DNA of 64,000 nt from Pyxidicoccus sp. MSG2 (lineage in GTDB: Bacteria; Myxococcota; Myxococcia; Myxococcales; Myxococcaceae), in NCBI RefSeq assembly GCF_026626705.1, contig NZ_JAPNKC010000001.1, forward strand, positions 7,954,001-8,018,000, given 5' to 3'. Numbering within the stretch: the first letter of the stretch is position 1; the number at the start of each line of letters is the position of its first letter. Below, one piece after another: positions 3,963 through 4,265 of this stretch. Both the position numbers and the translations under genes were made by a program. Under the pieces are notes generated by a model that was given only the letters and a program-made list of their open reading frames with translations, had not been told where the DNA came from and searched no databases.

Positions 3963-4109
3963 TTGAAGCGCCCGGCTGGTGAGGCCCTACACGCACTCAT
4001 TGTTGGTTCGAATCCAACTTCCGCCACCAATGGCGGAATAGCCAAATGGTAAAGGCACTCGATTCATATTCGAGCTTCACCCGATGGCTTCACTCCTCGG
4101 GCGCTTCAA
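3963..4109 (+). ncRNA. Permuted tRNA precursor module 1 with flanking clamp helices
   Basis: The outer helix pairs 3963-3974 (TTGAAGCGCCCG) with 4098-4109 (CGGGCGCTTCAA), 12 perfect base pairs. A 3x3 internal loop follows (3975-3977 / 4095-4097). Then comes a 9-bp inner helix, 3978-3986 (GGTGAGGCC) with 4086-4094 (GGCTTCACT), with G-U pairs at positions 1 and 6. Directly inside it on the 5' side lies CTACACGC (3987-3994), shared exactly with module 2. The tRNA halves fill the interior in the order 3' half then 5' half. The design brings the two ends that must be joined next to each other. Structure is seen in the sequence; its processing role is inferred. Confidence 0.75.
3997..4075 (+). tRNA. 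Circularly permuted tRNA, anticodon CAU (Met or Ile2 type)
   Basis: The 3' half comes first: T-arm GTTGG / TTCGAAT / CCAAC (4002-4018), acceptor strand TTCCGCC (4019-4025), A73 and an encoded CCA (4027-4029). Only two bases (AT) separate CCA from the 5' end. The 5' half follows: acceptor GGCGGAA (4032-4038, 7/7 pairs with the 3' strand), TA, a D-arm with GCC/GGC and a GG-containing loop, and a complete anticodon arm CTCGA / TTCATAT / TCGAG (4058-4074) with CAU at 4065-4067. The break therefore lies in the variable loop, which joining would restore as TCATT or CTCATT (5-6 bases). All canonical tRNA features are intact, including T33 and the TTCGAAT T-loop. Elongator Met versus lysidine-modified Ile2 cannot be decided from sequence alone. 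Confidence 0.8.
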
Positions 4110-4126
4110 TACCTCTCACACGTTTC

Positions 4127-4265
4127 GACGTCCGGCCGGAGTGGCCCTACACGCCCTGGGTGCTTGTTGTCGCCGGTTCGAATCCGGCTCTCCCGACTGC
4201 TGCCGGGAGATAGCTCAGTGGTAGAGCGCGAGCCTGAAAACACACGGCTACTCCACTCGGACGTC
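4127..4265 (+). ncRNA. Permuted tRNA precursor module 2 with flanking clamp helices
   Basis: Same architecture as module 1, beginning 17 bases after it. Outer helix 4127-4134 (GACGTCCG) pairs with 4258-4265 (CGGACGTC), 8 bp. A 3x3 internal loop follows (4135-4137 / 4255-4257). The 9-bp inner helix is 4138-4146 (GGAGTGGCC) with 4246-4254 (GGCTACTCC), with a G-U at pair 6 as in module 1. The octamer CTACACGC occupies 4147-4154. Relative to module 1 the outer helix sequence is different but still complementary, and inner pairs 3 and 5 switch U-A to A-U and A-U to U-A. This is covariation that argues for selection on RNA structure. Confidence 0.75.
4157..4235 (+). tRNA. Circularly permuted tRNA-Pro(UGG)
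   Basis: The 3' half is first: TGGGT (positions 34-38), anticodon-stem strand GCTTG (4162-4166), variable loop TTGTC, T-arm GCCGG / TTCGAAT / CCGGC (4172-4188), acceptor TCTCCCG (4189-4195) and A73. No CCA is encoded; a 7-base linker CTGCTGC follows. The 5' half begins with acceptor CGGGAGA (4204-4210, 7/7 pairs), then TA, D-arm GCTC/GAGC, G26, stem CGAGC (4229-4233) and CT (positions 32-33). Joining after T4235 to T4157 gives loop CTTGGGT, anticodon UGG with G37. The C1-G72 pair and G37 are hallmarks of tRNA-Pro, which supports this junction over reading the unjoined CTGAAAA as a Phe loop. Confidence 0.8.

Follow-up and report, generated by a model that had tools for sequence, protein, structure and literature searches.

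The two loci at positions 3963 to 4265 of the window, i.e., of the whole 64-kb stretch of DNA that was analysed, are very probably genes for two Y RNA-like (Yrl) noncoding RNAs in tandem, which mimic tRNA by circular permutation and represent a YrlA-type variant; we put the probability of this reading at roughly 0.8. The original prediction had described permuted tRNA genes in a bacterium, of which the architecture proved to be real, conserved and covarying, while the identity as tRNA genes is not supported, in view of the change of anticodon, the anticodon stem missing from locus 2, the ordinary tRNAs of the same genome and the tie to a Ro60-like protein. The bacterial permuted-tRNA-gene reading is thus corrected to a large myxobacterial Y RNA-like family with a Ro60-like partner. 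We infer that the units are transcribed, that the RNAs bind the Ro60-like protein and that they are functional, and the ends of the outer stems would be the transcript ends. The elements of the two units are the following.

3963-4109, + strand: Y RNA-like unit 1, spanning 147 nt from end to end of its outer stem, the presumed transcript ends; 106.4 bits at 3968-4104 with the covariance model R1, for the building of which both window units were used, so that their own R1 scores are not independent; fold z-score -6.83
3963-3975, + strand: unit 1 helix 1, 5' strand, with the partner strand at 4097-4109
3978-3986, + strand: unit 1 helix 2, 5' strand, with the partner strand at 4086-4094; 2x2 internal loop 3976-3977/4095-4096
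3987-3994, + strand: unit 1 conserved single strand CTACACGC (direct sequence), 3' of helix 2
4002-4018, + strand: unit 1 T-arm, 5 bp, loop TTCGAAT
4019-4025, + strand: unit 1 acceptor 3' strand TTCCGCC, 7/7 pairs, followed by the ACCAAT loop at 4026-4031
4032-4038, + strand: unit 1 acceptor 5' strand GGCGGAA, 7/7 pairs
4041-4056, + strand: unit 1 D-arm, 3 bp GCC/GGC
4058-4074, + strand: unit 1 anticodon arm CTCGA-TTCATAT-TCGAG, 5/5 pairs, which would read CAU; called tRNA-Met(cat) when rotated
4086-4109, + strand: unit 1 3' strands of helix 2 (4086-4094) and helix 1 (4097-4109)
4127-4265, + strand: Y RNA-like unit 2, 139 nt; R1 98 bits, likewise as a model member; fold z-score -3.68; Rfam YrlA match at 4142-4253
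4127-4146, + strand: unit 2 5' strands of helix 1 (4127-4135) and helix 2 (4138-4146)
4172-4188, + strand: unit 2 T-arm
4189-4210, + strand: unit 2 acceptor hairpin TCTCCCG-ACTGCTGC-CGGGAGA, 7/7 pairs
4213-4227, + strand: unit 2 D-arm GCTC...GAGC, 4/4 pairs in the model alignment; the MFE fold differs slightly
4228-4245, + strand: unit 2 remnant GCGAGCCTGAAAACACAC, with anticodon-loop-like letters and 0/5 pairs in the anticodon stem
4246-4265, + strand: unit 2 3' strands of helix 2 (4246-4254) and helix 1 (4257-4265)

Each unit is bounded by an outer stem, in which helix 1 (13 bp in unit 1, 9 bp in unit 2) is followed by a 2x2 internal loop and a 9-bp helix 2; these outer 13-bp and 9-bp stems and the second 9-bp helix had been absent from the original prediction. 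Inside the stem, the elements are ordered as a CTACACGC-type single strand, T-arm, acceptor 3' strand, closing loop of 6 or 8 bases in the two window units, acceptor 5' strand, TA and D-arm, to which unit 1 adds the anticodon arm. The place of the loci and the lead of the T-arm and 3' acceptor strand over the 5' acceptor strand and D-arm had thus been predicted correctly for both, and so had the full pairing of the acceptor stems in the permuted order only, since the strands pair at 7/7 positions within each locus (TTCCGCC/GGCGGAA; TCTCCCG/CGGGAGA) and at 4/7 both ways when cross-paired between the loci. The anticodon stems, both claimed to be intact, are so in locus 1 (CTCGA/TCGAG, loop TTCATAT) and not in locus 2, where 0/5 pairs form and the region is unpaired in the fold. 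The acceptor strands are adjacent, therefore all helices nest and folding needs no end-joining. The scan for promoters and terminators at the units gave no match.

On both strands, the 64-kb window has just two instances of a canonical T-arm pattern with a perfect 7-bp hairpin directly after it, which are units 1 and 2, and 20 first-order Markov versions have none; this rules out a chance origin of the permuted layout. In its encoded order, the window gave no tRNA call with ARAGORN. The tRNA search on rotated sequences, which had been proposed as a check for this region and its relatives, gave a clear outcome with ARAGORN at default settings: all 25/25 sequences of the alignment A2 were called as tRNA when rotated to the normal order and 0/25 as encoded. 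The Rfam family YrlA (RF02553) matched unit 2 with 36.4 bits (E 5.1e-5), not reaching its gathering score of 69, and no other Rfam RNA family ranked above it there or on units of L070, L073, L115 and L129. Wherever it matched, it scored 29-43 bits against the gathering score of 69, and the matches adjoining true TROVE genes were also below it; on the units of L003 and L112 the Rfam tRNA model outscored YrlA. Because the family remains below the Rfam gathering score, we class it as a YrlA-type variant and not as a member of RF02553. The Rfam tRNA model gave 42.2 bits on one Y RNA unit of the source genome (G000:C1:2976603-2976673; cut-off 29) and a false 31.7-bit match in the window (4032-4195), which bridges the 5' half of unit 1 to the 3' half of unit 2 over a long insertion. 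Annotators should be aware of this risk of misannotation, as the cut-off of 29 is exceeded both by a single unit and by the span across the window pair.

Judged from the aligned sequences, the structure is under selection, the permuted order included. In A2 (n=25, 37 pairs), 98.4% of the cells are paired and 17/37 pairs change on both sides, with both-side changes at 7/7 pairs of the acceptor helix in the permuted order, and helices 1 and 2 are paired in 99.4% and 98.2% of the cells. The ACA and GC columns of CTACACGC are invariant in the same 25 sequences. For all five covariation measures, 0/500 shuffles reached the observed values. With slid partners the pairing fell to 31.5-50.3%, a comparison that somewhat favours the structure over its slid versions, as A2 was aligned from sequence by MAFFT and the structure was drawn from one member.

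The model R1 was built from the 25 sequences of A2, which were hand-picked from scan lists and comprise units beside the partner protein or in the window. It matched in 27/27 genomes of the genus, 2 to 8 times per genome when weak matches are counted, some of them far from the partner gene, and at E<=0.001 in 96/193 genomes sampled from the phylum. The source genome (13.34 Mb) carries five firm units at 2975665, 2976538, 7957968, 7958128 and 9496810, while a sixth match (2967915, L131, 44.3 bits) is doubtful and was not counted, because ordinary tRNA clusters of this genome (L135, L138) reach up to 41.2 bits with R1. An artefact of tandem tRNAs was also considered for the window pair and rejected, the clusters scoring at most 41.2 bits vs 106.4 and 98 for the window units, both of them model members. 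Tandem copies elsewhere, outside the model, score 79-109 bits, and other outlying units 50-74. In 10 genomes of the same genus (L112-L117, L125-L128), chosen because of a prior R1 match, one or two strong units each are found between the dehydrogenase and M4 peptidase genes that also flank the window pair, and L115 and L117 have an additional weak or partial third unit at the syntenic site. Six genomes of another genus (L119-L124) carry a similar tandem pair without dehydrogenase or M4 peptidase neighbours within about 1.5 kb. These results bear on the idea that the loci are functionless, degenerate tRNA gene fragments resulting from tandem tRNA decay or left as prophage remnants, which would agree with the varying copy number and with the weak R1 matches (<=41.2 bits) across ordinary neighbouring tRNAs. 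The covariation already contradicts this idea by the almost complete pairing with compensatory change, and the outer stems retained at several genome positions, the synteny in 10 genomes and the tie to the protein stand against it as well, so that we find it hardly credible. Short units of 95-96 nt with the common outer stem and without the tRNA-like head were observed in L015, L018 and L025; in this they resemble YrlB.

The Y RNA-like reading is tied to a putative protein partner by both linkage and co-occurrence. In the source genome, two units near 2.976 Mb lie upstream of the gene for a 591-aa protein (L003:2824-4599) and flank a phosphatase gene, whereas about 5 Mb separate this gene from the window pair. 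Among 69 loci around homologues of the partner, some of which represent the same genome in two collections, at least one unit was detected in 54 and at least two in 42 (R1, E<=1e-4); most of the 15/69 loci without a unit at this threshold carry only a 1.5 kb flank. Where a locus has two units, the phosphatase gene is usually between them. Across the 193 sampled genomes, R1 at E<=1e-6 was found in 75/76 with the protein (E<1e-50) and in 0/117 without it; both limits were set after the lists were known and fall in a gap between the best weak R1 match (2.9e-5) and the worst strong one (1.1e-7). The lone exception, G043, has the protein and no strong R1 match, and its genome is 85% complete. The genera g5, g16 and g17 mix genomes with and without the system, and strong RNA and protein agree in each genome except G043; two weak R1 matches (best 5.1e-5) occur in G032 of g17, which has no protein. 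As only units that adjoin the protein gene or lie in the window went into R1, the co-occurrence could miss divergent units elsewhere. Two units also adjoin the partner gene in Myxococcus xanthus strain AM003 (L063), which makes this a tractable species for asking why Y RNAs mimic tRNA.

The 591-aa protein, which among the named records listed is nearest to one from Pyxidicoccus caerfyrddinensis (99%), has a vWA domain (Pfam VWA_2, 4.3e-9), and some 390 further residues match nothing in Pfam. By eye, the vWA domain contains a DKSGS motif, which we take to be the metal site. An AlphaFold2 model, built for the 99%-identical homologue of L061 from 15 sequences and of moderate confidence (pLDDT 65.1, pTM 0.45), consists of a helical part and a vWA domain. 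Foldseek against the PDB placed Ro60/TROVE structures at ranks 1-7, with E from 1.5e-7 to 2.2e-6 and 484-529 aligned columns, yet their TM-scores were 0.28-0.41 and their rmsd 10-18, and in VIA the Ro60 chains had Z of 12.3-12.8 over 274-362 aligned residues, with vWA-only chains scoring as high. With the N-terminal part alone, TROVE 9kop ranked first in Foldseek at E 0.14. A profile comparison with four proteins of the phylum found by Pfam TROVE, one of them below its cut-off, gave a probability of 96.7% and E 4.4e-10 for a single comparison over 434 collinear columns, and E 0.0063 with a probability of 5.9% for the N-terminal part. Pfam TROVE matched 0/15 homologues and nothing in the source genome at E<=0.001, hhalign of the protein alignment A1 against one TROVE protein found nothing, and the sequence search of the PDB with the partner returned vWA-type chains only. 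We therefore name the partner Ro60-like and not TROVE, because Pfam TROVE misses both the 15 homologues and the source genome.

The phosphatase gene (L003:1815-2522), located between the two units and upstream of the Ro60-like gene, is present in 13/17 named loci. The nearest solved relatives of its product are a diadenosine tetraphosphatase, a metallophosphoesterase and a serine/threonine phosphatase; this Ap4A-hydrolase/PPP-type enzyme is possibly the RNA-end or nucleotide phosphatase of the system. The open frame downstream of the Ro60-like gene (L003:4633-5499, cut at the locus end) had no Pfam or NCBIfam match. The source genome also has about six genes for the RNA ligase RtcB, one of them about 15 kb from the Ro60-like gene.

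The anticodons argue against a role in decoding. Among the copies beside the Ro60-like gene, 23 sequences gave 14 anticodons and one indeterminate call (rotated, ARAGORN), or 12 in 19 and one indeterminate call after exclusion of L011, L012, L014 and L070, whose anticodon stem is weak, shifted or missing; those seen include Trp(cca) in the source genome, Pro(tgg), Gln(ctg, ttg), Arg(ccg), Lys(ctt, ttt), Glu(ctc, ttc), Asp(gtc) and Asn(gtt). A decoding tRNA would keep its anticodon, and as the copies differ, they are probably not decoding tRNAs. True circularly permuted tRNA genes, whose ends would be cut and joined by RtcB and whose circle would be opened by RNase P and tRNase Z to release two tRNAs, one of them Met(CAU), could explain that rotated locus 1 is called tRNA-Met(cat), that ACCA follows its acceptor 3' strand and that the source genome has 8 RtcB matches in those about six genes. 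However, ACCA is missing after the acceptor in 6/11 sequences of the locus-1 class (L117, L115, L122, L120, L124, L121), the anticodon differs between related copies, locus 2 lacks the anticodon stem, and the 79 tRNA genes called by ARAGORN in the tRNA regions of the same genome include ordinary Met(cat), Phe(gaa) and Trp(cca) tRNAs in 5, 2 and 2 copies. Moreover, known permuted tRNA genes have bulge-helix-bulge (BHB) junctions (as described in PMC3978253), whereas the ends of the present units pair into a long stem interrupted by a 2x2 internal loop, and the near-perfect co-occurrence with the Ro60-like protein would be left unexplained. We consider this reading very improbable, and the predicted maturation via a circle found no support, given the anticodon changing by species, the stemless locus 2, the ordinary Met, Phe and Trp tRNAs and the Ro60-like protein.

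Another view is that anticodon nucleases are baited or sensed by anticodon-bearing Y RNAs, whose hairpin would be cut or bound instead of tRNA, with Ro60 passing the product to decay or repair. It would fit the locus-1 class, in which the stem CUCGA/UCGAG is identical in 11/11 sequences (n=11 leaves out L114:1710-1844, which also has CUCGA/UCGAG), while the loops come in nine distinct forms with U at the second position in 10/11. The number of R1 matches in genomes of the genus (2 to 8 each, with the weak ones counted) and the several RtcB genes with one near the Ro60-like gene could be taken in the same sense, and so could YrlA itself, whose tRNA-like domain is described as uncut by the Salmonella anticodon nuclease and suggested as its competitive inhibitor (PMC7790460). 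On the other hand, the arm is absent from many copies, and in the locus-1 class the anticodon loop, with a divergence of 0.52, changes no faster than the acceptor loop (0.57) or the 3' linker (0.48), next to 0.00 in the T-loop and the anticodon stem and 0.28 in the acceptor stem, which keeps 7/7 pairs in 11/11. In the locus-2 class (n=11), the anticodon-loop columns, acceptor loop and T-loop diverge by 0.40, 0.49 and 0.05. The bait view is therefore unlikely, and a divergence of this size in the anticodon loop would be as expected from drift. We also think it quite unlikely that dispersed permuted mimics, each presenting its own anticodon hairpin on a Ro60 platform, are decoys or sensors for tRNA-cutting enzymes and that the variety of anticodons is selected and not a product of drift.

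For the Y RNA-like reading, we hypothesize that the paired ends of a unit form the long stem that would be the likely seat of the Ro60-type ring protein, and that the top of the RNA would be the tRNA mimic with its acceptor end closed by a short loop. The free ends would exit between the anticodon arm and the T-arm, where a tRNA has its variable loop. Conservation in the mimic covers the T-arm, the D-arm, the acceptor pairing and, in many copies, the anticodon hairpin, with the anticodon itself free to change. By analogy with the Y RNAs of Salmonella and Deinococcus, the RNA could act as gate and tether of Ro60, and the tRNA-like head may offer a docking surface to tRNA-binding proteins such as nucleases or modification enzymes. 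Many copies in the family carry a whole tRNA cloverleaf including the anticodon arm, and many others lack this arm.

Hints of the origin of the family come from two metagenome-assembled genomes (MAGs). In L073, labelled Kofleriaceae, four matched units lie upstream of the protein and one of them is a permuted Ser(cga) (ARAGORN, lowered threshold). In L074, labelled Planctomycetota, a label that may be wrong, the common outer stem (7/7 and 9/9 pairs) surrounds a tRNA-Arg(acg)-like sequence whose order is unpermuted. This unit (L074:345-474) lies some 3 kb upstream of a Ro60-like gene, and the enclosed sequence reached 53 bits with the Rfam tRNA model and was called as a tRNA unrotated (ARAGORN, lowered threshold). 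A Y stem can thus enclose a tRNA either permuted or unpermuted, which suggests that tRNAs were captured by it repeatedly. In L057, which belongs to a different family of this phylum, a Pfam-TROVE gene has a YrlA match and three Rfam tRNA-Sec matches, of which one exceeds the cut-off, at its place and just upstream of it (L057:200-594 and 645-716).

Among known systems, YrlA is the closest to the window family. According to PMC8394870, this RNA measures 90-150 nt, its basal stem tethers Rsr, and its head, which resembles the D, T and acceptor arms, is modified by DusA and TruB and binds PNPase. The solved Salmonella YrlA, 6CU1, is reported to be circularly permuted relative to tRNA (PMC13355120), a case overlooked by the original prediction when it stated that it knew of no established bacterial one. 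The two share the long stem from paired ends, the permuted head of T-arm, acceptor hairpin and D-arm and, as proposed for the window family, a Ro60-type partner (PMC8394870, PMC13355120), but the window family adds an anticodon arm in many copies, while YrlA is described there with D, T and acceptor arms only; it also differs from RF02553 in scoring below the gathering score of 69, in a partner missed by Pfam TROVE and in several copies per genome. At L056, a Pfam-TROVE gene of the same phylum, two adjoining YrlA matches (42.9 and 31.3 bits) have mildly stable folds (z-scores -1.73 and -2.57), in which no anticodon arm was seen. The partner resembles Ro60/Rsr (TROVE-vWA) in its helical N-terminal half and vWA half, in the Foldseek ranks 1-7 and in the collinear profile match, and differs from it in the absence of a Pfam TROVE match (0/15), the low TM-scores and the N-terminal half, which is not significant alone. 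The circularly permuted tRNA genes of algae and one archaeon, described with BHB junctions and a circle intermediate leading to tRNA, likewise have the 3' half before the 5' half and an acceptor closed by an intervening loop (PMC3978253), but in the window family the anticodon changes among relatives and the ends form a stem, and inspection of the unit folds by eye revealed no BHB motif, only the 13-bp or 9-bp helix, the 2x2 loop and the 9-bp helix. Permuted two-piece tmRNA also has its tRNA-like domain in permuted order (PMC3978253); it differs in that the Rfam tmRNA model gives only weak cross-matches in relatives. Neither myxobacterial Y RNAs nor an anticodon arm of YrlA were reported in the titles and abstract beginnings of the open-licence papers among the listed matches. 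New with respect to YrlA are the anticodon arm, the several copies per genome, the partner missed by Pfam TROVE and the MAG relative with an unpermuted tRNA in the Y stem.
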